Origin: Thermanaeromonas sp. C210
Lineage (GTDB): Bacteria; Bacillota; DSM-521; Neomoorellales; Neomoorellaceae
Direction: 5' to 3'
Assembly (NCBI RefSeq): GCF_013167955.1
Contig: NZ_BLWF01000003.1
Location: forward strand, 124,001-188,000
DNA: 64,000 bases
In this document: piece after piece, positions 22,081-58,254 of the stretch
How the letters are laid out: each line of letters opens with the position of its first letter
Position numbering within the stretch: the stretch's first letter is position 1
The notes under the pieces: model-generated
Seen by the model: the letters and a program-made list of their open reading frames with translations, nothing else
Told to the model about the DNA's origin: nothing
Databases searched by the model: none
Made by a program: the position numbers and the translations under genes

Positions 22081-22101
22081 AGGGGGGAGGGGTTGAAGGG
22101 C

Positions 22102-23805
22102 ATGGAGAGCAAGAGGAGGCTGGGAGACCTCCTGGTGGAAGCCGGGATGATCACCCGCGAACAACTGGAACAGGCCTTAAGGGAGCAGAGGCGAAGCGGT
22201 GAACGCCTCGGCAAGGTCCTTACCCGCCTGGGATTGGTGACCGAGAAGGACATCCTGGAGGTCCTGGAATTTCAACTGGGCATACCCAAAGTAGTGTTGC
22301 AGGATTATAATTTAGATCCCGGCGTGGTCAGGCTGGTTCCCGAGGCCCTGGCCCGGCGACACCTGGCCATTCCCATCCGCCGGGACGGGAATAGGCTCCT
22401 GGTGGCCATGGCCGATCCCTTAAACCTTACCGCCTGGGACGACCTCCGCGTGGCAACGGGGCTGGAGATCATGCCGGCCATCGCTGCGGAAAGGGAAATC
22501 GAGACCATGCTCTCCCGCTTCTGGCAGGGCGGGGCAGGAGGGACGTCGGTTCCGGCCGAAGGAGAAGGGATTGCCCAGGCAGCGGCCGCGCTCGATGCTC
22601 CCGGGGCCTTCGACCTGGACGGGGCAAGGGGTGCGGCAACGGATAACGCCCCGGCAGTACGCCTGGTCAACCGCATAATTCTGCAGGCGGTCCACTCCAG
22701 GGCCAGCGACATCCATATCGAACCCCAGGAGAAAGACATAAGGGTGAGGTTAAGGGTGGACGGGTTGCTCCGGGACGTGTCCCGTCTGCCGCGGGGCATC
22801 TTGAACACCCTGGTGTCCCGGATAAAAATCATGGGGGGAATGGACATAGCCGAAAGGCGGCTCCCCCAGGACGGCCGTTTTCAGGTAACGGTGGAAGGGC
22901 GAAACATAGACCTGCGGGTCTCCACCATGCCCACCGTTTACGGGGAGAAGGTGGTACTGCGGATCTTGGACAAGGGCACCATGCTTCTGCCCCTTGACGG
23001 CTTGGGGTTCCTGCCTTCCACCCGGCAGATCTATGAAACCCTGATCCGGAGCGCCTACGGTATGATCCTTATTACGGGACCCACGGGGAGCGGTAAAACA
23101 ACAACCCTTTACGCCACCCTCAACGCCCTGAGTTCCCCGGAAAAGAACATAATCACCATCGAGGATCCGGTGGAATATCTGCTGCCGGGTATAAATCAGG
23201 TGAGGGTCAACCCCAAGGCCGGCCTGGATTTTGCCTCCGGCCTCCGGGCCATCCTGCGCCAGGATCCCGATATTATAATGGTCGGGGAGATCCGGGACCG
23301 GGAAACGGCGGACATATCTGTGCGGGCGGCCACCACCGGCCACCTGGTTCTGAGCACCCTGCACACCAACGACGCCGCCGGGGCCGTGACTCGCCTGCTG
23401 GACATGGGAGTAGAGCCCTTTCTCGTGAATTCTTCCCTCATAGGAGTCGTGGCCCAGCGCCTGGTACGCCTGATATGTCGTAATTGTCGTGAAACCTACC
23501 ATCCCGCCCCCGAGGATCCGGCCCGCGCCTTTGCCCGGGACAAAAAGGGACTGGTGTTCTACAGGGGCCGCGGGTGCCCCCAATGCAATTACACGGGCTA
23601 CCAGGGGAGAACGGCCCTCCACGAAGTCCTGGTCATGACGGAGGACCTCCGGGCCCTGGTGGCCGCAAAGGCTCCCTCCCACGAGATAAAAAAGGCGGCC
23701 GTAGCCGCGGGGATGGTGACCCTGCGGGAGGACGGCCTGGAGAAGGCCGGCCAGGGGCTTACAACCGTGGAGGAAGTAATGCGGGTGACTTTGGGAGGTT
23801 TATGA
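22102..23805 (+). CDS. pilB: Type IV pilus extension ATPase PilB with MshEN c-di-GMP domain
   Basis: Cytoplasmic hexameric motor that powers pilus assembly. The N-terminal ~150 residues form an MshEN (GspE_N) region with two RLGxxL repeats (RRLGDLLVEAG and ERLGKVLTRLG), which bind c-di-GMP in characterised homologs. The ATPase core has Walker A TGPTGSGKTT near residue 327, the Asp box, Walker B DPDIIMVGEIRD near 388, and a zinc site CRNC...CPQC (about 458-495). I chose ATG 22102 (567 aa) because GGGGGGAGG lies at a good distance; TTG 22093 is too close. It opens the pil operon. Confidence 0.93.
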   Translation: MESKRRLGDLLVEAGMITREQLEQALREQRRSGERLGKVLTRLGLVTEKDILEVLEFQLGIPKVVLQDYNLDPGVVRLVPEALARRHLAIPIRRDGNRLLVAMADPLNLTAWDDLRVATGLEIMPAIAAEREIETMLSRFWQGGAGGTSVPAEGEGIAQAAAALDAPGAFDLDGARGAATDNAPAVRLVNRIILQAVHSRASDIHIEPQEKDIRVRLRVDGLLRDVSRLPRGILNTLVSRIKIMGGMDIAERRLPQDGRFQVTVEGRNIDLRVSTMPTVYGEKVVLRILDKGTMLLPLDGLGFLPSTRQIYETLIRSAYGMILITGPTGSGKTTTLYATLNALSSPEKNIITIEDPVEYLLPGINQVRVNPKAGLDFASGLRAILRQDPDIIMVGEIRDRETADISVRAATTGHLVLSTLHTNDAAGAVTRLLDMGVEPFLVNSSLIGVVAQRLVRLICRNCRETYHPAPEDPARAFARDKKGLVFYRGRGCPQCNYTGYQGRTALHEVLVMTEDLRALVAAKAPSHEIKKAAVAAGMVTLREDGLEKAGQGLTTVEEVMRVTLGGL

Positions 23806-23812
23806 TACGGCC

Positions 23813-24826
23813 ATGCAAATACATATAAACGATGTTCTGGCTTCCGCAGCAGAGGTTGGCGCATCCGACGTACACCTCACGGTGGGGCTGCCGCCGGTGT
23901 TCAGGCGGCACGGGAAATTGGAAGTCCAGGAGGCCTGGCCGCCCCTGACGTCCGCGGTAATGGAGGCCGTGGTCCGGCAGATCCTGGGTTCCCGCTGGGA
24001 GGAATTCGTCCAACGGAAGGAACTCGACCTGGCTTACTCGGTTCCGGGACTGGGACGGTTCCGGGTGAATATTTTTTATCAGAGGGGCAGCGTAGGGGCG
24101 GCCATCCGTTTGGTGGCTGCGGCCATACGCTCCCTGGACGAACTGGGCCTTCCCCCGGTTGTGGGAGAACTCGTAGACCAACCCCACGGTTTAATCTTGG
24201 TCACCGGCCCTACGGGTAGCGGTAAAAGCACTACCCTGGCGGCCATGATCGACCGCATCAACGAGCGCCGGGCCTGCCATATAATCACCCTGGAGGATCC
24301 CATTGAGTACCTTCATCACCACAAGAAGAGCATTGTCAACCAGCGGGAAATAGGCTTCGACTCCCCCTCCTTCGCCAGCGCCCTGCGGGCAGCCTTAAGG
24401 CAGGATCCCGACGTGATCCTGGTCGGGGAGATGCGGGACCTGGAAACCATAGCCACGGCCATCACCGCCGCCGAAACCGGGCATTTGGTCCTGGCTACCT
24501 TGCACACGGGAAGGGCGGTGCAAAGTATAGACCGTATTATCGATGTGTTTCCTCCCCATCAACAGCCCCAGGTGCGCATCCAGCTGGCGGATGTCCTGGT
24601 GGGTGTGGTGACCCAGCAGCTCCTGCCGCGGGCCGACGGCCGGGGCAGGGTGGCGGCCGTGGAGATACTCATCGCCACCCCGGCCGTGCGCAACCTCATC
24701 CGGGAGGGCAAGACGCACCAGATTGTTTCCCATATGCAGACGGGGGGACGCTTCGGCATGCAGACCATGGAAATGGCCGTGAAGCAACTAGAGGCCCGGG
24801 GAATAATCGCCGGGGAAAATAGTTAG
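23813..24826 (+). CDS. pilT: Type IV pilus retraction ATPase PilT
   Basis: Motor for pilus retraction, 337 residues, the usual PilT length. Short PAS-like N-terminal domain, Walker A TGPTGSGKSTT near residue 131, Asp-box LEDPIEYLH, Walker B DPDVILVGEMRD, His box GHLVLATLHT, and the C-terminal AIRNLIREGK-like segment (AVRNLIREGKTHQ) typical of PilT. It begins 7 bp after pilB. A c-di-GMP riboswitch lies directly downstream, so pilB-pilT can be made without the rest of the operon. Confidence 0.94.
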   Translation: MQIHINDVLASAAEVGASDVHLTVGLPPVFRRHGKLEVQEAWPPLTSAVMEAVVRQILGSRWEEFVQRKELDLAYSVPGLGRFRVNIFYQRGSVGAAIRLVAAAIRSLDELGLPPVVGELVDQPHGLILVTGPTGSGKSTTLAAMIDRINERRACHIITLEDPIEYLHHHKKSIVNQREIGFDSPSFASALRAALRQDPDVILVGEMRDLETIATAITAAETGHLVLATLHTGRAVQSIDRIIDVFPPHQQPQVRIQLADVLVGVVTQQLLPRADGRGRVAAVEILIATPAVRNLIREGKTHQIVSHMQTGGRFGMQTMEMAVKQLEARGIIAGENS

Positions 24827-24870
24827 CGCGGCAGGATTCTGGAGATATTTGGCGAAATATAAACCCCTAA

Positions 24871-24960
24871 ACCCGTTACCAGGGCAAACCCGGCGAAAGC
24901 CGGGGGCGCAAAGCTACGGGCCTAAGGGCAGGGAGGCCTAAGGTCGCCGGGCTGCCGGGA
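24871..24960 (+). promoter_or_regulatory. c-di-GMP-I riboswitch aptamer (GEMM-I)
   Basis: The sequence has the GEMM-I landmarks in order: AGGGCAAACC (24881-24890), a hairpin with GAAA tetraloop (CCCGGC-GAAA-GCCGGG), GGCGCAAAGCTACGGGCCTAA with the tetraloop-receptor region, and the closing GTCGCCGGG (24943 on). It lies in the 171-base gap between pilT and pilC. The AGGGC box matches the c-di-GMP-binding form. Its 3' strand overlaps an intrinsic terminator. Confidence 0.9.
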
Positions 24961-24997
24961 AGGTGCAGTTATTCCTGGAAGGCCGGCGCTTTTTGTT
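24945..24997 (+). terminator. Riboswitch expression-platform terminator before pilC
   Basis: Outer stem CGCCGG (24945-24950) with CCGGCG (24983-24988) and inner stem CCGGGAA (24955-24961) with TTCCTGG (24972-24978), then TTTTTG. The 5' arm is shared with the 3' side of the riboswitch P1, so ligand binding should block terminator formation (inferred ON switch). The pilC ATG at 24998 follows the T-run at once, and the only nearby Shine-Dalgarno-like GGAAGG (24977-24982) is inside the hairpin, so translation may be controlled too. Confidence 0.7.
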
Positions 24998-26203
24998 ATG
25001 AGGGTAAGGTACAGGGCCAGGGATGCTGCTGGGAAACTCGTCCAAGGTTTCATAGAAGCGGACAACGAGCAGGCGGCCGGCCGCCTCCTGCGTAGCCGGG
25101 GACTTTTTATAACCGAACTGCGGCCGGTAGAGGATCAGCCGGATTACCTGCGCTCATTGCTTTGGAAGCGCGTAGGTCGCCGGGATCTCGCCCTCTTTTG
25201 CCGGCAGCTGGGAACCATGCTGGCGGCGGGCCTGCCCATTGTGAACGCCTTGAGGACCTTGAGCAGGCAGGAAGGCAATCCGCGGTTTAAAGCCAGCATA
25301 GACAGGGTGGTGGAAGATCTGGAGCAGGGGAACCCCCTCCACGCCGCCCTCGGCAAATCGCCGCAGGTATTCCCGCCGGTAATGGTATATTCGGTGGAGG
25401 CGGGCGAAGTGAGCGGCGCCCTGGATGAGATCCTGATGAGGCTGGCCGAACACTTTGAACGGGAGCACGAGGTCCAGGAAAAGATTAAGTCGGCCATGAC
25501 CTATCCCCTGATAGTCCTGGTGGTATCCCTTCTGTCGATAGGTTTTATAATAACCTTTGTTTTGCCCATGTTCAGCAACATAATCGCCAATATGGGGGTC
25601 CCTTTACCGTGGCCCACCCGGGCGGTACTGGGCCTGGGCCGGTTTTTCAGGGAGTGGTGGCCCTGGATGGCCGCGGCCCTGGCCGCCGCGGGTTACGGGG
25701 CCTGGAGGTGGTCCCAACAGGAGAGGGTGAGGTATGCCCTGGATAAAATCGTACTACGATTTCCGGTCTTCGGGCATCTTAAGCACCAGGCTCTCCTTTC
25801 CCAGTTCAGTCGAACCCTGGGCACCATGCTGTCCAGCGGGGTGCCTATTCTACAGGCCCTGGAGGTGGTGGAAAGAACGGTAGGCAATCGCATACTGGCC
25901 GAGGCCATAGCCCTGGCCCAGGAGCAGGTACGGGATGGGAGGAGCATAGCCTCGCCCCTGGCGGAGAGCGGCGTCTTCCCGCCCATGGTAGTGGAGATGG
26001 TTACCGTGGGCGAGGAAACGGGTACTTTGGACGCCCTCCTGGCGAGGCTGGGAGCCTTCTACGACCGCGAAGTGGGCGAGATGGCCGCCCGGCTGTCCTC
26101 CCTCATCGAACCCCTTCTGATACTGGTCCTGGGCGGCGTGGTGGGAGTCATCGTAGTATCCGTGCTGCTCCCCGTATTCCAGGTGGTGGGGAGCGTGAGG
26201 TGA
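24998..26203 (+). CDS. pilC: Type IV pilus inner-membrane platform protein PilC
   Basis: Integral membrane platform on which PilB and PilT act. The 401-residue GspF-family protein starts RYRARDAAGKLVQG, typical of PilC, and has two homologous GspF domains (about 65-190 and 265-390) with the FCRQLGTMLAAGLP and FSRTLGTMLSSGVP motifs, and about three membrane segments near 165-190, 215-240 and 370-395. Its ATG lies right after the riboswitch terminator, so its expression probably depends on c-di-GMP. The repeated domains are normal for the family. Confidence 0.93.
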   Translation: MRVRYRARDAAGKLVQGFIEADNEQAAGRLLRSRGLFITELRPVEDQPDYLRSLLWKRVGRRDLALFCRQLGTMLAAGLPIVNALRTLSRQEGNPRFKASIDRVVEDLEQGNPLHAALGKSPQVFPPVMVYSVEAGEVSGALDEILMRLAEHFEREHEVQEKIKSAMTYPLIVLVVSLLSIGFIITFVLPMFSNIIANMGVPLPWPTRAVLGLGRFFREWWPWMAAALAAAGYGAWRWSQQERVRYALDKIVLRFPVFGHLKHQALLSQFSRTLGTMLSSGVPILQALEVVERTVGNRILAEAIALAQEQVRDGRSIASPLAESGVFPPMVVEMVTVGEETGTLDALLARLGAFYDREVGEMAARLSSLIEPLLILVLGGVVGVIVVSVLLPVFQVVGSVR

Positions 26204-26294
26204 GGGGCGAGAGAAAGTATTGGTGCTGGTGACACGGGAGACGGTGGGAGAACAAAGTTGAATATGCTTCGAACGATCAGAGGGGGTGGCTATT

Positions 26295-26789
26295 ATGAAA
26301 TTGTTAAGAAGGATATTGCGGAGTGAGCGGGGGTTTACCTTAATAGAACTTGTGGTAGTAGTAGTTATAATTGGTATTTTAGCTGCAGTAGCGTTGCCCC
26401 GGTTCCTTGAACAAACGGAAAGGGCTAGAGAGAGTAGGGCTAAGGCAGACCTTGAGTCTATGAAGACGGTTCTTATAATCTGGGCTTCTGATGAGGGTAA
26501 AGGAAAGTTTCCCAGTGGAGGACAAGAACTAAAGGAGGCGTTAAGCAGTGAAGGCATTGACTGGGAGAGCATAGGTGATCCGTGGGACAACGAATATTAC
26601 TATGGGGTTACTTCGGACGGGAAGCATTTCATTATTCTTAGTAAAGGGTCTGACGAGAGTAACGCCACTGATGATATATGGGTCACGGATAGTACTCCTC
26701 CGGTGTCGGCTGAGCCGGACTTGGACTTGGATTCAGATGGGAATTCCGACAACATTATCTGGGTGCCAAGCGACCCCTCTCAACAGTAA
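26295..26789 (+). CDS. Type IV major-pilin-like protein
   Basis: A prepilin of 164 residues. A short positively charged leader (LLRRILRSER) precedes the cleavage motif G-FTLIELVVVVV, with Glu5 of the mature protein and a hydrophobic helix to about residue 38. The C-terminal part has an Asp-rich tail (DLDLDSDGNSD) that may bind calcium, as in GspG-type pseudopilins. Start ATG 26295 follows AGAGGGGG; GTG 26286 is less likely. The coding sequence is visibly richer in A/T than its neighbours. It is the main pilin candidate because it stands apart from the minor-pilin cluster and lies before pilD. Confidence 0.85.
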   Translation: MKLLRRILRSERGFTLIELVVVVVIIGILAAVALPRFLEQTERARESRAKADLESMKTVLIIWASDEGKGKFPSGGQELKEALSSEGIDWESIGDPWDNEYYYGVTSDGKHFIILSKGSDESNATDDIWVTDSTPPVSAEPDLDLDSDGNSDNIIWVPSDPSQQ

Positions 26790-26843: not shown

Positions 26844-27599
26844 ATGCTTACAATACTTTTTGTTGCTATGGCAGGCCTACTCATCGGCAGCTTCCTCAAC
26901 GTGGTGATATACCGCCTGCCGCGGGGGGAAACTGTAGTTTTCGGGCGCTCGTACTGCCCCGGGTGCAGGAGGGTGCTGGCCTGGTACGACCTGATACCCC
27001 TTGTAAGCTACATAATTCTACGGGGTCGCTGCCGGTATTGCGGGGGGCGAATTTCCCCGCGATATCCCCTGGTGGAGTTAACGACGGGCGCGGTTTTTGC
27101 CGCGCTCTTTTACCGCCTGGGGCCGGGCTGGGTGCTGGTTAAGTACCTGTTCCTGGCCTGCTTCCTCATAGCCGCCTCCTTTATCGACCTGGAACATTAT
27201 TTAATACCCGACCGGCTGATTTTTGCCGGACTGCTTGTCGGAGGAGGATTTTTACTGTCGAATAGGGAAATTACTATTGGTTCCGGCTTCCTGGGGGCCC
27301 TTTCGGCGGCCGGCCTCCTGTGGTTACTGGCCCTGGCCAGCAGGGGTAATGTGGGCGGCGGGGATATCAAGCTCGCCGCGGTGGTGGGGCTGTTCATGGG
27401 ATGGCCCTGGGGATTGGGGGCCGTCCTGGGGGGCCTGTTTCTCGCCGGCGCCGCCGGTGCATTCCTGCTGGCCCTCCGGGTTAAGGGGCGGAAGGATCCC
27501 CTGCCCCTGGCTCCCTTTTTGAGTGCGGGTGCCCTGGTGGCCTTTTTCTGGGGCCCTCAGATTCTCGCCTGGTACGCCGGGCTGTTGGGGGTGGGGTAA
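26844..27599 (+). CDS. pilD: Prepilin leader peptidase/N-methyltransferase
   Basis: Membrane aspartic protease that cleaves prepilins and methylates the new N-terminus. The 251 residues have two zinc CxxC pairs (CPGC and CRYC) in the cytoplasmic loop near 40-75, catalytic Asp residues in FIDLEHYLIPD and GGGDIKL, and about seven hydrophobic segments. Length is typical. It lies between the pilin and the minor pilins that it would process. Confidence 0.94.
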   Translation: MLTILFVAMAGLLIGSFLNVVIYRLPRGETVVFGRSYCPGCRRVLAWYDLIPLVSYIILRGRCRYCGGRISPRYPLVELTTGAVFAALFYRLGPGWVLVKYLFLACFLIAASFIDLEHYLIPDRLIFAGLLVGGGFLLSNREITIGSGFLGALSAAGLLWLLALASRGNVGGGDIKLAAVVGLFMGWPWGLGAVLGGLFLAGAAGAFLLALRVKGRKDPLPLAPFLSAGALVAFFWGPQILAWYAGLLGVG

Positions 27600-27605
27600 G
27601 CCGGG

Positions 27606-28172
27606 ATGCGCCGCAAGCGGGAAAAGGCGGCGGGCGGTCGGGACTTAGGAGGGAATGGAGGTTTTACCCTCCTGGAGATTTCCGTAGTAGTGGCCCTGCT
27701 GGGCGTAATCATGGCCGTGAGTCTTCCCGGCCTTGGTAAACCCCTGGCCTACTACCGCCTTAAGGTGGCGGCCAGTCAGATGGCCCAGGACCTGCGGGAG
27801 ATCCAGCAGACGGCCCTGAACGAAGAGAGCGACAAGTACCGCGTCTTCTTTGCCGCCGGGGGCAGCCATTACGAGGTACGGAAGGCCCAAGAACAAACCT
27901 TGCCCCAGGTTATAAAGCGGGTGTACCTGCCGCCCACTGTGAAGATCGTATCCACTACCTTTAAGGATAATGCCGTCACTTTTAGCGTCAAGGGCACGCC
28001 CTATCCCCAGGGAGGCACCGTAACGCTACAGGACACGGTTTCCGGGAGATTAGTGTACGTCATTGTAGCCTCCATTACGGGAAGGGTGCGGATTAGCACG
28101 TCGCCGCCCGAGAGCTGGGAGGTACAGGGAGGGGCCTTATGCTTAAAAGCCAGGACGGGTTTACCCTTTTAG
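27606..28172 (+). CDS. Minor pseudopilin, GspH/FimT type
   Basis: A 188-residue protein with a 19-residue charged leader ending in the prepilin motif GG-FTLLEISVVVALLG. The helix is followed by a GspH-like beta domain (MAQDLREIQQTALNE). GspH/FimT proteins help prime the pilus tip. It overlaps the next gene by 34 bases in another frame. The function is inferred from fold and context. Confidence 0.8.
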   Translation: MRRKREKAAGGRDLGGNGGFTLLEISVVVALLGVIMAVSLPGLGKPLAYYRLKVAASQMAQDLREIQQTALNEESDKYRVFFAAGGSHYEVRKAQEQTLPQVIKRVYLPPTVKIVSTTFKDNAVTFSVKGTPYPQGGTVTLQDTVSGRLVYVIVASITGRVRISTSPPESWEVQGGALCLKARTGLPF

Positions 28173-28519
28173 AAGTGGTGGTGGGAGTCGTCATTTTGGC
28201 CGTGGCCCTGGTACCCCTGGTGGATTACTTGGTGGTCAGCAGCCGGTGGTCGGCCTCCTCGGAGGAAGAATTGGTAGCCCTGGCCCTGGCCCAGGGCAAA
28301 ATAGAGGAAATTAAGGGGAGGCCCTTGTCCGAGGTCCGGGACGAGCCGGAGAACCCCGGGGACCCGCCTCTTGCCTTCCCGGAGAACCCTTCTTTTCGTT
28401 ATCGCCTCACCGTGGACGAATCCGGCCGTTATCTCAAAACCGTAATCGTAACCGTGTACTACGAAGACTCCTGGGGCTCCAGGCAGGTGAGCTTGACGGC
28501 GGAGAAGGGATGGAGGTAG
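28139..28519 (+). CDS. Minor pseudopilin, PilV/GspI type
   Basis: A 126-residue prepilin-like protein with a short leader and motif DG-FTLLEVVVGVVILAVAL, then a small C-terminal domain. The sequence LVALALAQGKIEEIKGRPL resembles the PilV/GspI family (ARAQAEEIL-type segment). It overlaps both neighbours, typical of coupled minor-pilin operons. Confidence 0.8.
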   Translation: MLKSQDGFTLLEVVVGVVILAVALVPLVDYLVVSSRWSASSEEELVALALAQGKIEEIKGRPLSEVRDEPENPGDPPLAFPENPSFRYRLTVDESGRYLKTVIVTVYYEDSWGSRQVSLTAEKGWR

Positions 28520-28986
28520 CCCCTTTGGCAGGCAAAAGGGCCGGATTCACCCTGGTAGAAGTGGTGGTAGCCGTTACCGTTTTTGTCCTGGCCCTCAGCG
28601 GGGCTTTGGCCCTGTATCTGCAGGAAAGCCGGGTCTTCAAGGATACTGAAGCCCGGGTGGAGGTCCAGGAACACGCCCGTATCGCCCTGGACCGGGTGGT
28701 GCGGGAGCTCCGGACGGCCAAGGAGGTAAATGAGGTCAGGGCCACTTCCGTTACCTTTACCTTAGAGGACGGATCCCGGGTGCGCTATTACCACGACGCA
28801 ACCCGGCAGCAGCTCATGCGCGAGAAAAACGGGGGAGTTAATCCCGTGGCCAGTTATGTAAGGGACCTGCGTTTTAGCGGTGAACTGATGGGTGCTACTG
28901 GGGATCTCCTCATAAGGATTACCCTGGCAGCGGGCATGGGAGAGGACCAAACCTTTACCCTTACTACCAGCGTGTTGGTAAGGTGA
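28510..28986 (+). CDS. Minor pseudopilin, PilW/GspJ type
   Basis: A 158-residue prepilin-like protein with leader ending AG-FTLVEVVVAVTVFVLAL, then HARIALDRVVRELRTA and VTFTLEDGSRVRYYHD, as in PilW/GspJ proteins. ATG 28510 lies inside the end of the previous gene (10-base overlap). It probably sits in the pilus tip complex with its neighbours. Confidence 0.8.
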   Translation: MEVAPLAGKRAGFTLVEVVVAVTVFVLALSGALALYLQESRVFKDTEARVEVQEHARIALDRVVRELRTAKEVNEVRATSVTFTLEDGSRVRYYHDATRQQLMREKNGGVNPVASYVRDLRFSGELMGATGDLLIRITLAAGMGEDQTFTLTTSVLVR

Positions 28987-28990
28987 GGCT

Positions 28991-30142
28991 ATGTTTCTGC
29001 GGGATCAGAAGGGCCAGGCGCTACTTTTTGTGGTACTCATGACTTCCCTGATTTTAGTCCTGGCCACCGGGGCCCTGGCCGTGGCCGGTGCCCACCGCCG
29101 GAACGTCCGGCTCCAGGAACAGCAGGTGCAGGTGTACTATATAGCCGAAGCAGGCCTCGAAAGGGCCTTAGCCAGGATGAGGGAAGAACCGGATTGGCTG
29201 GACGGCGTGCCCTCCGGCGGAAGCGTGAGGATGGCGGGAGTGGAGGGGCCCTACGCCGGCGGCGAAATAAGCGAGGTCACCCTCCAGAAGAACCCCGAGG
29301 GGATGGGCCTTAGAGTGGACCTCACTTCCGTGGGCAAGTTTATCGGAGCCCAAAAGACCCTGCGGGCTTCATTGTACCTGGTGAATACCCGAAGTTTGCT
29401 GGGGGGCCTGAGCCTCCTGCCAGAGTCCCCCATGGATCTTGATATAAAGGGAAAGTTCTCCCTGGAAGGTACCGGAGAGAGTACGCCCCGGCTCCTCCTC
29501 AACGGGGATCTTCATCTATCGGGTTCGGCCAGTATTGAAGGCGATGTGTATGTCTCCGGGGAAGTAGTGGGCCGCGACAGGGTGACAGGCCAGATCCATT
29601 CCGGTCTCCAGGATCTTCCGGAGTTTCCAGCCATAGATCTCACCTATTACGAAGGACAGGCCCGGCAGCAGGGCCAGTATTATGGTGGAGATCTTTCTTG
29701 GAGCGGGACGATCCCTCTAAACGGAGTGTATTACGTGCAGGAAGAGGCCAACCTTTCTGGTACCTATTACGGGCGGGGCGTTATAGTTGTCGAAGGGGAC
29801 GTGACCATTTCCGGGGATCTCCTGCCCGGTTCTGAGGGGGATGCCTTGGCCGTTATTTGTCTCGGCGATGTTGACATGGAAAACAACACGGTGAATGCAA
29901 CGATAATCACGGAGGGTACCCTGTTCCTCAGGGGCAACGCGGAGGTCGAGGGAGCCGTCCTGGCCAGAGGCATCAGCTTCGGGCAGAAAGGCAAGAAAGA
30001 CAAAAGCGAAGGGGATGAAGAGAAAATCACGGGTAACGTAACTATTAGGTACAACGATGAAGGAATCCCGCAGGACCTCCTTATGGGAGTGGTGACGGAG
30101 CTGAAGATACTGTCCTGGGAAGAAGCCCACCCCATATTTTAA
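28991..30142 (+). CDS. PilX-like pilus protein with beta-helix (bactofilin-like) C-terminal part
   Basis: A 383-residue protein. N-terminus QKGQALLFVVLMTSLILVL is a GspK/PilX-like membrane helix lacking the usual GFTLIE motif, followed by YYIAEAGLERALARM, a PilX hallmark. Residues ~150-340 hold short repeats with Gly and hydrophobic residues (such as LNGDLHLSGSASIEGDVYV and VVEGDVTISGDLL), like a right-handed beta-helix of bactofilins. A charged insert (GKKDKSEGDEEK) is near 335. The role may be tip or surface decoration. It lies 4 bp after the PilW-like gene. Confidence 0.7.
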   Translation: MFLRDQKGQALLFVVLMTSLILVLATGALAVAGAHRRNVRLQEQQVQVYYIAEAGLERALARMREEPDWLDGVPSGGSVRMAGVEGPYAGGEISEVTLQKNPEGMGLRVDLTSVGKFIGAQKTLRASLYLVNTRSLLGGLSLLPESPMDLDIKGKFSLEGTGESTPRLLLNGDLHLSGSASIEGDVYVSGEVVGRDRVTGQIHSGLQDLPEFPAIDLTYYEGQARQQGQYYGGDLSWSGTIPLNGVYYVQEEANLSGTYYGRGVIVVEGDVTISGDLLPGSEGDALAVICLGDVDMENNTVNATIITEGTLFLRGNAEVEGAVLARGISFGQKGKKDKSEGDEEKITGNVTIRYNDEGIPQDLLMGVVTELKILSWEEAHPIF

Positions 30143-30210
30143 AGGCGGAATAACGGCGGACCTCGCAACGAGCTCGCGGGAAAACCTGGTGGGAGGAGAG
30201 GTTAGGGGTG

Positions 30211-31107
30211 ATGTGGCCGGTGGGGCGGAGGCAAAAAGGTCTACTGGGGATCGATATAGGAACGGCTCAGATTAAGGTCGTGGCCGTGCAGGGTAGGGGC
30301 CGGGTGTACCGGGCGGTGGGAGAGGCGCCGCCTGGTGGAATCGATAATGAAGAGGAGATGGCGGCCGCCCTGGCCCAGGTAGTGGAGGAAACGGGTTGGC
30401 AGGGCCGCCAGGTGGTAAGCGCCGTGGACGGGCCCCGGGTGATGGTGCGGTATTTGCAGCTTCCGCCCATGCCGGAGAGGGAAGTGCGCGCCGGCCTCCC
30501 CTATGAAGCCGATAAGTATCTGCCGGTAGGGACCGGAGATATGGTGCTGGACTGCGCCGTCCTTGACCCGGAGCCCGGCCCCCGGGAGCAAATAGAAGTC
30601 CTGCTGGCCGCCGTACCCCGGGAGCTGGCCCTTTCCTACCACCGCCTCTGCCAAAGGGCCGGCCTGGAGCTGGTGGCCCTGGACATTGTACCGGCCGCCC
30701 TGTGCAGGGCCCTGGCAGCGGAGACCGGGAAGGAAGAGGCCATTATACTGGACCTGGGGGCGAGTTCGAGCCAGGTGGTCCTAGTGAGGGGGGGAAGGCT
30801 CCTCTTCAGCCGGAGAATAGGCTCCGGTGTGCCGGCAACCCGGCCGGCAGATACTTCGGGGGAATTTAATACCCTGCTGGATCTGCCCCAGGAGGTCCGG
30901 CGGTCCCTGGAATTTTACGGATCCCAGACTGGCAGGGGGGTAAACCCATCCAGGGTGTTCCTCACCGGCGGAGGAGCCTATGAAGAGGGACTTATAGATT
31001 TCTTACATATGGAGCTGGACCTGCCCGTGGAGGTGGGTAGGCCCTACGGCCTGGGGCCTGAATATGCCGTGTCTCTGGGCCTAGCCTTGAGGGAAAGCAG
31101 GGGATAA
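30211..31107 (+). CDS. pilM: Type IV pilus assembly protein PilM
   Basis: Actin-like cytoplasmic protein that binds PilN and links the motor to the alignment complex. It has the ATP-fold motifs LGIDIGTAQIKVVAV near residue 12, IILDLGASSSQVVLV near 178 and FLTGGGAYEEGL near 250. The length of ~298 residues is slightly short for PilM (usually about 340). The start is ATG 30211 or GTG 30208 (same frame) after GGAGGAGAGG. Confidence 0.88.
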   Translation: MWPVGRRQKGLLGIDIGTAQIKVVAVQGRGRVYRAVGEAPPGGIDNEEEMAAALAQVVEETGWQGRQVVSAVDGPRVMVRYLQLPPMPEREVRAGLPYEADKYLPVGTGDMVLDCAVLDPEPGPREQIEVLLAAVPRELALSYHRLCQRAGLELVALDIVPAALCRALAAETGKEEAIILDLGASSSQVVLVRGGRLLFSRRIGSGVPATRPADTSGEFNTLLDLPQEVRRSLEFYGSQTGRGVNPSRVFLTGGGAYEEGLIDFLHMELDLPVEVGRPYGLGPEYAVSLGLALRESRG

Positions 31108-31108
31108 G

Positions 31109-31657
31109 ATGGCCGCACGAGCAGTAATGGTCAATTTGCTTCCGCCGGAACTACAGCCTCCCCGTCCTTCCTCCTTCCGCCGGCTGGGTAAAGTGGCAGG
31201 CGTTCTTTTATTGGGCGGAATATTAATGCTGTATCCGGCTTTTTTAGTGGCCGGCCGGGCCACCGCAGAAGATTTGCGGGATGTCGAGGAGGAGCTGGCC
31301 TCTTACCTGCCCCGGGAACAGGAAGCGCGGGCCCTTGAGGAGCGGATAAACACCCTGCGCCGGCAGAAGGCCGAGATGGAAGCTGTAGTACGGGAGAGGC
31401 GGAAGTGGTCGGAGTTGCTGGAAGAGCTGGGAGCCGCCCTTCCCGCCCAAGTGTGGATGACCGAACTGGAAGTCGCCTCTTCCGGTGAGATCCTCTTTAC
31501 CGGCCGGGCTACTTCCCTGGCTGCCGTGGGGAAATTCCTGGCGGCCGTGCAGTCCCTCCCCTTCTGGCAAGAGGTGGAACTCCGGTCGGTCCAGGCCGTC
31601 CCCGAGGACAAGACCCTTCTGGAATTCACCATCAGGGCCGCCTTCGCGGAGTCCTGA
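31109..31657 (+). CDS. pilN: Type IV pilus alignment protein PilN
   Basis: A 182-residue bitopic membrane protein. The N-terminus VNLLPPEL is the PilM-binding motif of PilN, followed by a membrane helix (about 30-48), a coiled coil (about 52-95), and a small ferredoxin-like domain (WMTELEVASSGEILFTGRA). It starts 1 bp after pilM, as usual for pilM-N-O. Confidence 0.88.
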   Translation: MAARAVMVNLLPPELQPPRPSSFRRLGKVAGVLLLGGILMLYPAFLVAGRATAEDLRDVEEELASYLPREQEARALEERINTLRRQKAEMEAVVRERRKWSELLEELGAALPAQVWMTELEVASSGEILFTGRATSLAAVGKFLAAVQSLPFWQEVELRSVQAVPEDKTLLEFTIRAAFAES

Positions 31658-31719
31658 GGGACTGGCCCCGGAGTCCAAACCCAGAAGGCCGGACGAGGAA
31701 ACAGGAGGAATTGGCGCAA

Positions 31720-32991
31720 ATGCAGTGGCCCCAATACCGCACTTTAAGTGCCCGGGAGAGACGCTTGCTCATCCTCCTTCTAGTGGTGGTAGTTACGGTG
31801 TTTGCCTACCGGGTGGTATGGGCCCGGCAGTTGCCCTACTACAGGCAGTTAAAGGCCCAGTTGGCGGACCAGAAGGACAAACTGGCGGCCGCGCAGGAGG
31901 CCGCCGGCCGGCTGGACCTGCTAAGGGAAGAACTGGCCCGGGCAGAAGCCGAAATGGAGGAGTGGAAGGAACAGACGGGTATTATCCTGCAAGAGAGGGA
32001 AGAGTTTTTGGCGGCGGCCCAGCCGCGGCAGGAAGGGGTAAGGGTCGTGACCTTGCGCCCCCAGGAACCGGAACAACGGGGGAGTTTCATGGTATACCCC
32101 TTTCATATTGCCGTTGAGGGGGCCTACCCTAAGGTAAAGGATTACATCCACCAGTTGGAGGGCCTGCCCGCCCTAACGGAGATACGGGACTTGAGGATAG
32201 CGGCCAAGGCTGGAAACGCAGGACTGGTGGAGGCCAGCTTCATGCTGGATTTTTATCCCCTGGGTGATGGAGGTACGGTGGGCCGGGCGGCAGCTCTCTT
32301 GCCATCGGGCCGGGTCGATATATTCATGCCCCTGGTCGGCGGTAGCAGGGGATCTGGGGAGGCTGAGCCGGATAATGGCTCGGTCGGTGGCCGGCAGAGC
32401 CTGCCCGCCCGCGCTCCGGCGGCACCTGACCCGCCCTCGCCGCCTCCGTCCCGGTCAGGTGCGGCCAGGGACGGCGGGCCGGGGGATGAAGACGGTACCG
32501 GTGGTCCCGAATATCGTTTCCCCTCCCGGGGCAGCGGTCGCCCCCGGGCCGGAGCCCCGTGGCTGGAGGGCATGAGGGTTTTGCGCAATGTGGGGCCCTT
32601 TTACTACCCCGCCGGCCGGAAGATTGCCATCGGAGGGCGACAATTCGAGCACGGCCTGGTGGTGGATCTGGAGGGGAAGGGGGACGGGGCCGAGGCGGTG
32701 CTGGACCTGGGGGGCGGCTACTTGAACCTCCGGGGCTTCATAGGGGTGGAGGATGAAACCATGAACACCCGCGGTAACCTCGTACTCCGCATAAAGGGCG
32801 ATGAGCGGGAACTATTCGTGAGTTCGCCTCTGGAGCCCGGCAGGTATCCGCAGTATGTGGAAGTAGAAGTGGCGGGAGTTAAGCGGCTGGTCCTCCAGGT
32901 CGAATGGGTGGAAGGAAAACGGGGCGACTACGACCGCCTGCGCGCCGCCCTGGCCGATATGGTTTTCGCGGCCGCGGAGAGGAATATTTGA
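31720..32991 (+). CDS. pilO: PilO-like pilus protein fused to a C-terminal NPCBM-type carbohydrate-binding-like domain
   Basis: 423 residues, about twice a normal PilO. Residues ~1-185 match PilO: short cytoplasmic tail, membrane helix (about 17-33), coiled coil (about 40-105) and a ferredoxin-like domain (FHIAVEGAYPKVKDYIHQLE). A long Pro/Gly/Ser-rich linker (~210-280) follows. Residues ~285-415 match the NPCBM fold: IAIGGRQFEHGLVVDL, LDLGGGYLNLRGFIGVEDE, GNLVLRIKGD, LFVSSPLEPG and LVLQVEWV. NPCBM domains bind glycans, so the protein may reach the cell wall or a surface polysaccharide (inference). Start ATG 31720 has AGGAGG 11 bases upstream. Confidence 0.8.
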   Translation: MQWPQYRTLSARERRLLILLLVVVVTVFAYRVVWARQLPYYRQLKAQLADQKDKLAAAQEAAGRLDLLREELARAEAEMEEWKEQTGIILQEREEFLAAAQPRQEGVRVVTLRPQEPEQRGSFMVYPFHIAVEGAYPKVKDYIHQLEGLPALTEIRDLRIAAKAGNAGLVEASFMLDFYPLGDGGTVGRAAALLPSGRVDIFMPLVGGSRGSGEAEPDNGSVGGRQSLPARAPAAPDPPSPPPSRSGAARDGGPGDEDGTGGPEYRFPSRGSGRPRAGAPWLEGMRVLRNVGPFYYPAGRKIAIGGRQFEHGLVVDLEGKGDGAEAVLDLGGGYLNLRGFIGVEDETMNTRGNLVLRIKGDERELFVSSPLEPGRYPQYVEVEVAGVKRLVLQVEWVEGKRGDYDRLRAALADMVFAAAERNI

Positions 32992-57524: not shown

Positions 57525-57586
57525 GTACATTGGACCCTGCGAGGGGGAACGGAGCGGGTCCCCCGGGCAAGGCGATCTATAGGGTC

Positions 57587-58200
57587 GGTGGGTGGCGCAG
57601 TATCCTAGTCAGTGCCGCCGTTCCTGAAGACGGGCCTAAAAATCCGTCAAGGGCACACCGATGAAGTTCCTGGTGCTGGCTGCCGACGCCCAGTCGGGGG
57701 TTGGTGCTGGGAGTTAAGGAAGGAGGGCGATCTACAATGGCATGTAGGCGTGGACCCTCCTTTCGCGGAGACCCAAGTGCGTGGGAAAGTCCCGGCGGGG
57801 ACGAGTACTATGGCTTGGGGTAGAAACCTGCAGTCGGTACAGAAGGGTGCTGGCTGCAGCGTAGCCTGCCTTGAGCGGTTGTGGTGGAAACCGGCCCGGT
57901 AAATTTACGGGCTGCTGCCCGGCTCCGCCGCCCGGAGCCCGGGCAGTCCAGTTGAAACCACAGCTGCAAAAGAGGCTAGGGAACGGACGGTACTGTCGAG
58001 GAAAACTCCTAGGCTGCTTACGCTTTGGTAAGGCCTGCCAGGGATTGAAGTGTGTGCTAAGTGGTAATCCAGTCCTGTATACGGCGACGTTACAGGGCAA
58101 CCTTTAAAGGGAAACCGCCGCCACGGCGACGTGCGGTAGGTTGCCGGGAAATCCTACTGGACCTAAGCCACAGCCTTTACCTGGCAGGTTGCCACCCACC
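57587..58200 (+). ncRNA. ole: OLE RNA (ornate large extremophilic RNA)
   Basis: A long gene-free stretch of about 610 bases, the size of known OLE RNA, in the classic place between ispA and oapA-dxs. The ends form a perfect 10-bp closing helix: GGTGGGTGGC (57587-57596) with GCCACCCACC (58191-58200). Many GC-rich hairpins lie within, and no frame codes a plausible protein. OLE RNA with OapA forms a membrane-bound ribonucleoprotein linked to stress and metal responses in Bacillus halodurans. The 5' end may extend to about 57531. I identified it by location, size and closing helix, not by an Rfam search. Confidence 0.88.
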
Positions 58201-58254
58201 TATCTATCAAGGGTACATACTATAAAGGGTACATAGGGGGAAAGGGCAAAAAAC

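Follow-up and report, generated by a model that had tools for sequence, protein, structure and literature searches.

The pilM riboswitch of Geobacter metallireducens, which has been studied by experiment, has a mutually exclusive ON design (PMC9262584). Like the element analyzed here, which lies between pilT and pilC of Thermanaeromonas sp. C210, this GEMM-Ib riboswitch has a GEMM-type aptamer placed before pilus genes and, as predicted here, acts as a transcriptional ON switch in which terminator and aptamer exclude each other. It differs in its ligand (cGAMP), its Gram-negative host, and the gene that it controls, pilM. The Cd1 riboswitch of Clostridioides difficile is an OFF GEMM-I riboswitch (PMC9262584). 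The primary type IV pilus operon of C. difficile is cited in PMC11656802 as having a c-di-GMP riboswitch upstream. Its likeness to the present case, on the strength of that citation, is that in a Gram-positive anaerobe the expression of type IV pili goes up with c-di-GMP, as is predicted here. The C. difficile element is a class II riboswitch, and thus of another aptamer class, and it stands at the front of its operon rather than between pilT and pilC.

Riboswitches that act at two levels are also known. Dual transcription-translation attenuation is a named category, in which terminator and start codon are at most 10 nt apart and the hairpin bears a ribosome binding site on its 3′ side (PMC2258182). 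The pilC leader resembles these platforms in having fewer than 10 nt between its terminator and the ATG and a ribosome binding site-like sequence on the 3′ side; they were described for metabolite riboswitches, whereas here the Shine-Dalgarno (SD) sequence is poorly spaced and the layout occurs in only three of the genomes examined. For Bc1, a GEMM-I riboswitch of Bacillus thuringiensis, incoherent transcription-translation dual regulation has been reported (PMC11218506). Bc1 thus combines transcriptional and translational effects, as an earlier note on this DNA had proposed for the pilC leader, but it has a long platform with two terminators, exerts opposite effects at the two levels, and controls mcpE. 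Finally, the MshEN receptors of MshE and PilB (PMC5013675, PMC11656802) carry two 24-residue motifs joined by a 5-residue linker, as does the PilB encoded here; they differ in providing protein-level control, which is complementary to a riboswitch.

Results

An aptamer and a predicted terminator that share a strand precede pilC

The window (the whole stretch of DNA analyzed, 64,000 nucleotides) belongs to a 2.68-Mb genome of 19 contigs that is 99.4% complete. The pilus genes lie on the forward strand in the order aroE, aroC, aroK, aroB, pilB, pilT, a gap, pilC, pilin, prepilin peptidase, minor pilins, pilM, and two ORFs (Table 1); the aro names were assigned from translations. The 171-nt gap between pilT and pilC is occupied by a full-length RF01051 aptamer (model positions 1 to 87 of 87 by cmscan with Rfam), which scored 78.4 bits against a gathering score of 35 (E = 9.7e-14). 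This match, together with the T2SSE and T2SSF genes on either side, bears out the earlier note, which had placed a GEMM-I riboswitch between pilT and pilC. The RNA is predicted to be a c-di-GMP sensor of a well-known kind, and the gene whose leader it forms is of a kind regulated by c-di-GMP. Elsewhere in the window, a full-length OLE RNA (RF01071) was found at 57576-58211 on the forward strand (509.9 bits).

Table 1. Features of the pilus cluster and the pilC leader (window positions)
Feature	Position	Strand	Basis
pilB, extension ATPase, two MshEN motifs, upstream of switch	22093..23805	+	Pfam MshEN, 72.7 bits
pilT, retraction ATPase, upstream of switch	23813..24826	+	Pfam T2SSE
Degenerate sigma-H-type promoter (putative), GCAGGATTC-N11-GGCGAAATA	24832..24860	+	13 of 15 consensus positions
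c-di-GMP-I (GEMM-I) aptamer	24873..24959	+	cmscan, RF01051
Intrinsic terminator hairpin (predicted) reusing the aptamer 3′ strand (24945-24959)	24945..24988	+	Fold, shuffle
GGAAGG, sole SD-like sequence before pilC, on 3′ side of terminator	24977..24982	+	Sequence, SD scoring
U-tract TTTTTGTT abutting pilC start codon	24990..24997	+	Sequence
pilC, platform protein, first gene under the switch	24998..26203	+	Pfam T2SSF, 225.6 bits
Major pilin-like protein	26286..26789	+	N_methyl, T2SSG
Prepilin peptidase (pilD)	26844..27599	+	Profile match
Minor pilins	27606-28172, 28139-28519, 28510-28986	+	ORFs, Pfam
PilX-like protein (name inferred)	28991-30142	+	ORFs, Pfam
pilM and two following ORFs	30208..32991	+	pilM, Pfam PilM_2; pilN-like and pilO-like, position and length

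The final 15 bases of the aptamer fall within the 5′ arm of a hairpin. This arm, CGCCGG (24945-24950) plus CCGGGAA (24955-24961), is almost entirely aptamer 3′ strand; the opposite arm is UUCCUGG (24972-24978) plus CCGGCG (24983-24988). A C, the run TTTTT (24990-24994), and GTT then lead into the pilC ATG, so that three bases separate the end of the T-run from the start codon. The hairpin folded at −28.8 kcal/mol, versus −19.7 ± 2.8 kcal/mol for dinucleotide shuffles of the post-aptamer part only (z = −3.3, p = 0.008). A simple terminator scan with a loop limit of 8 nt passed over it, its loop being 10 nt. Because they have a strand in common, aptamer and terminator are mutually exclusive at this leader. 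As in the pilM type, the terminator pairs with the aptamer 3′ strand and a U-tract comes next. The minimum-energy fold of the whole leader holds the terminator without an intact aptamer: at −57.9 kcal/mol, versus −39.2 for the aptamer plus −7.2 for the rest, the terminator is predicted to be favored by about 11 kcal/mol, and the ON state would thus need co-transcriptional capture of the ligand.

Both the strand shared between aptamer and terminator, with a T-run three bases from the ATG, and an ON logic had been proposed in the earlier note; the sequence and the fold confirm the former, and the exclusion of the aptamer by the terminator supports the latter. We conclude with considerable confidence that the riboswitch is a transcriptional ON switch, in which ligand would block the terminator and RNA would enter through a sigma-H-type promoter as well as by read-through. 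Without ligand, the downstream strand would capture the aptamer 3′ strand to form a strong intrinsic terminator, which would release RNA polymerase just 5′ of the pilC ATG. Once c-di-GMP has bound, the aptamer would retain its 3′ strand, the terminator would be unable to form, and pilC, the pilin gene, the peptidase gene, pilM, and the later genes would be transcribed. The RNA input would probably come from the sigma-H-type promoter directly upstream, which is weak here, plus read-through from aro-pilB-pilT. Most likely, the pilus genes could be read through the switch only at high signal.

The set of genes assigned to the switch had been pilC, the pilin gene, and the minor pilins, with pilB and pilT left basal. 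This holds for pilB and pilT as regards the RNA element, but the block was drawn too narrowly, as the prepilin peptidase gene, pilM, and the ORFs after it also lie downstream, and PilB itself is probably not outside c-di-GMP control. Its MshEN motifs (R9-Q32 and R38-Q61, 24 residues each, with a 5-residue linker; the RLG...Q match permits M, T, or I at single positions) are at the same positions as those of Vibrio cholerae MshE (PMC5013675). c-di-GMP probably acts on PilB as a protein, via MshEN; since PilB carries both motifs, "basal" fits pilB transcription only.

The arrangement is conserved among relatives

PilC was searched in 61 genomes (this genome and relatives) and then in 398 genomes of the phylum, and the best-matching loci were scanned with Rfam. 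The order pilT, GEMM-I, pilC was met in at least 22 loci, this one included, a count that is not a census; pilT was confirmed upstream in all of them, and they span five families (f1, f35, f36, f39, and f113). In 21 of the 22, the aptamer 3′ strand supplies part of a hairpin, and a T-rich tract comes after it. At the f113 locus (G288), the terminator stands apart from the aptamer; no hairpin in common with the aptamer was found there. The shared hairpin was more stable than shuffled sequences (p < 0.05) in all 18 loci tested; the four loci outside this test were G288 and three (G016, G010, and G012) that are near-identical in the segment to one tested. At one locus (G001), the aptamer strand has A in place of G and the terminator arm has T in place of the opposing C, and the pair is kept.

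Other positions in the same aro-pil cluster are also used. A c-di-GMP-I aptamer lies between pilC and the pilin gene in G020 (L145:7154-7240), and a c-di-GMP-II aptamer lies between the same two genes in G055 (L146:6777-6862); no obvious terminator was found for these two aptamers. The 13 to 14 kb of cluster read in G019 and G023 held no c-di-GMP element. From these placements, insertion of a c-di-GMP switch within the aro-pil cluster seems to have happened more than once. In a small set of papers that name Moorella thermoacetica and riboswitches, no title or abstract appears to describe the pilT-GEMM-pilC arrangement.

Translation of pilC

The best SD-like hexamer near the pilC ATG, GGAAGG, is within the hairpin and partly paired, which agrees with the claim of the earlier note that the only SD-like sequence is inside it. 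It ends 15 nt before the ATG, a long spacing for an SD. In the last 20 nt, the best SD duplex score of pilC is −5.7, the third weakest among the 19 window genes examined.

Were the hairpin also to block pilC translation by burying the only SD, c-di-GMP would relieve both blocks at once. Its geometry would allow this: the hairpin core ends at 24988, leaving 9 nt before the ATG at 24998, inside the 10-nt limit for dual attenuation (PMC2258182), GGAAGG is partly paired, and no other SD precedes pilC. The relatives argue otherwise. In 19 of the 22 loci, an SD lies outside the hairpin, between the terminator and the start codon, within an aptamer-to-start stretch of 45 to 97 nt (duplexes of −6.7 to −14.3 kcal/mol, some of them moderate). 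By SD scoring, this post-terminator SD is absent from only three of the 22, namely this genome, G007, and G004, where the stretch is 38, 38, and 42 nt, respectively. The latter two are the closest relatives by PilC (77% and 72%) and have the same compacted layout; the distance from GGA(A)G to the ATG is 15 nt in this genome but 17 nt in G007 and 24 nt in G004. As this distance is not kept, the sequence does not look like an SD under selection. Furthermore, transcripts ending at the U-tract never include the ATG, so translation would matter for read-through RNA only. We regard such a dual switch as doubtful. As the linker that carries the SD is lacking in this genome and the two close relatives, the hairpin there would extend its cover to the site of ribosome entry, and a second, translational lock at pilC is possible.

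The translational half of the earlier proposal thus rests on an unconserved hexamer 15 nt from the ATG. The accompanying remark that a combined transcription-translation switch would be unusual was not supported, as this is a named riboswitch category (PMC2258182) and Bc1 is reported to be dual too. Separately, an alternative pilC start, or coupling to pilC through a small GTG frame (24963-25001; 12 codons, with a TGA that overlaps the pilC ATG), was considered and rejected: the SD of this frame is in the wrong place, and in G004 the stop does not overlap the pilC start.

A probable sigma-H-type promoter upstream of the aptamer

The leaders were searched for RNAGGAWWW-N11-RNNGAATWW (15 scored positions), the full Bacillus subtilis sigma-H consensus. 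AGGA and GAAT have been stated to be the conserved SigH elements for an acetogen (PMC12456013). The site in this genome has two mismatches, with GAAA for GAAT (local shuffle p = 0.027); those of relatives score 13 to 15 of 15 at the same place, several being perfect. In all, the motif reaches at least 13 of 15 in up to 19 of the 22 loci, usually 8 to 14 nt ahead of the aptamer but as far as 41 nt in a few. Shuffles of the local sequence scored as high in no more than 4% of trials for 18 of these loci and in 13% for G053, where the match is weak. The motif is absent from three of the 22 loci (G133, G166, and G288). A consensus scan found no sigma-70-type promoter before the aptamer.

Genome-wide, AGGAWW-N15-GAATWW occurs at 69 sites, versus 10 for the reversed pattern; a variant with 16-nt spacing gave 21 versus 5 in the control, and the 15-nt spacing is that of the pilC leaders. 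Among the 30 sites examined, the majority fall in no long frame and stand a short way ahead of a start codon. These sites are a probable sigma-H regulon, and the genome encodes sigma-H (TIGR02859, 374 bits; cutoff, 294.8). Perfect sites lie upstream of two other GEMM aptamers (C3:441462-441488, aptamer at 441571; C2:637018-637044, aptamer at 637090).

A sigma-H-type promoter of its own very likely serves the riboswitch in most relatives and probably does so in this genome as well. With such a promoter, pilC could be expressed even if no read-through came from pilB-pilT. The alternative, that the riboswitch has no promoter of its own and only modulates read-through from aro-pilB-pilT, would account for the degenerate site in this genome and for G133 and G166, in which about 40 nt separate the end of pilT from the aptamer; having no promoter motif, these two must make do with read-through. 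It fits poorly with sites of 13 to 15 of 15 conserved at similar distance in most relatives, and with the perfect sites upstream of two other GEMMs, and we consider it unlikely.

Near-identical sigma-H-like sites, AGGAATT(G/T)GGGCTGATTCGTCGAATTA, were also noted; those at C1:295007, C3:249201, and C3:261622 are identical, and C2:650779, C4:167522, and C4:292656 have a one-base variant. At the one such site that was read (L093), the next ORF resembles what is presumably an IS66-type transposase. An insertion element may carry this recurring sigma-H-like promoter.

Other GEMM-I copies in the genome

The genome has seven GEMM-I copies and four GGDEF matches. One copy (L007, C4:417770-417873, reverse strand) precedes flgB and a flagellar basal-body operon. 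Two (L002 and L005) precede chemoreceptor genes, that of L005 being followed by an ORF that overlaps a GGDEF match; the others precede genes for an HD-domain protein (L006), a short HTH_16 protein (L003), and an HATPase protein (L001). At L001, L002, L003, L005, and L007, GC hairpins with T-tracts are able to form entirely 3′ of the aptamer. At L002 and L007, the fold with the best score takes in part of the aptamer; the separate hairpins of these two, GGGGCTAC...GTAGCCCC and GGCCTGC...GCAGGCC, were read by eye. This suggests that five of the other copies have an OFF-type layout, like Cd1-type switches; among the seven, only the pilC copy has its terminator clearly on the aptamer's own strand. 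The layout before flgB suggests OFF logic, opposite to that of the pilC copy. Given opposite layouts within one genome, reciprocal control of swimming and pili is a fair prediction.

In addition, L142 (C3:441571-445260) comprises a GEMM-I aptamer, a perfect sigma-H-type site upstream, a chemoreceptor gene, and then a GGDEF gene, an arrangement that is possibly a feedback loop.

OFF GEMM-I switches exist (PMC9262584), and at five of the six other copies here the terminator does not draw on the aptamer strand. An OFF logic at the pilC leader, with c-di-GMP binding promoting termination as in Cd1, was nevertheless rejected, because the terminator uses up the aptamer 3′ strand and the two cannot coexist, as is true in 21 of the 22 loci; we consider it highly improbable. 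The c-di-GMP-I model is the best at the pilC leader in a clan that includes related GEMM variants, and the relatives match best with c-di-GMP-I or c-di-GMP-I-GGC. The discriminating ligand-contact position appears to be G in an alignment read by eye, under a numbering that we assume to be right. Recognition of 3′,3′-cGAMP, as by the GEMM-Ib switches that govern Geobacter pilus genes (PMC9262584), is scarcely credible for this RNA.

Discussion

The kind of riboswitch and the category of combined switches are known already; the context of this one is what is informative. Together with the transcriptional ON switch at pilC, the features described here are tentatively consistent with two-input, two-level control of the pilus. 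Sigma-H would start transcription, and c-di-GMP would permit transcription of the platform and filament genes and would act on the separately made PilB motor via MshEN, while OFF-type GEMM-I copies at flagellar and chemotaxis genes would give a reciprocal output of pili versus swimming.

If this is true, c-di-GMP splits the pilus cluster into a switch-free motor half and a signal-gated structural half. The structural half would be gated at the RNA level, and the pilus would also be controlled at the protein level through the MshEN motifs of PilB. A single aptamer class would serve pili and flagella with opposite riboswitch logic in one genome, and the c-di-GMP signal would be tied to a transition-phase sigma factor.
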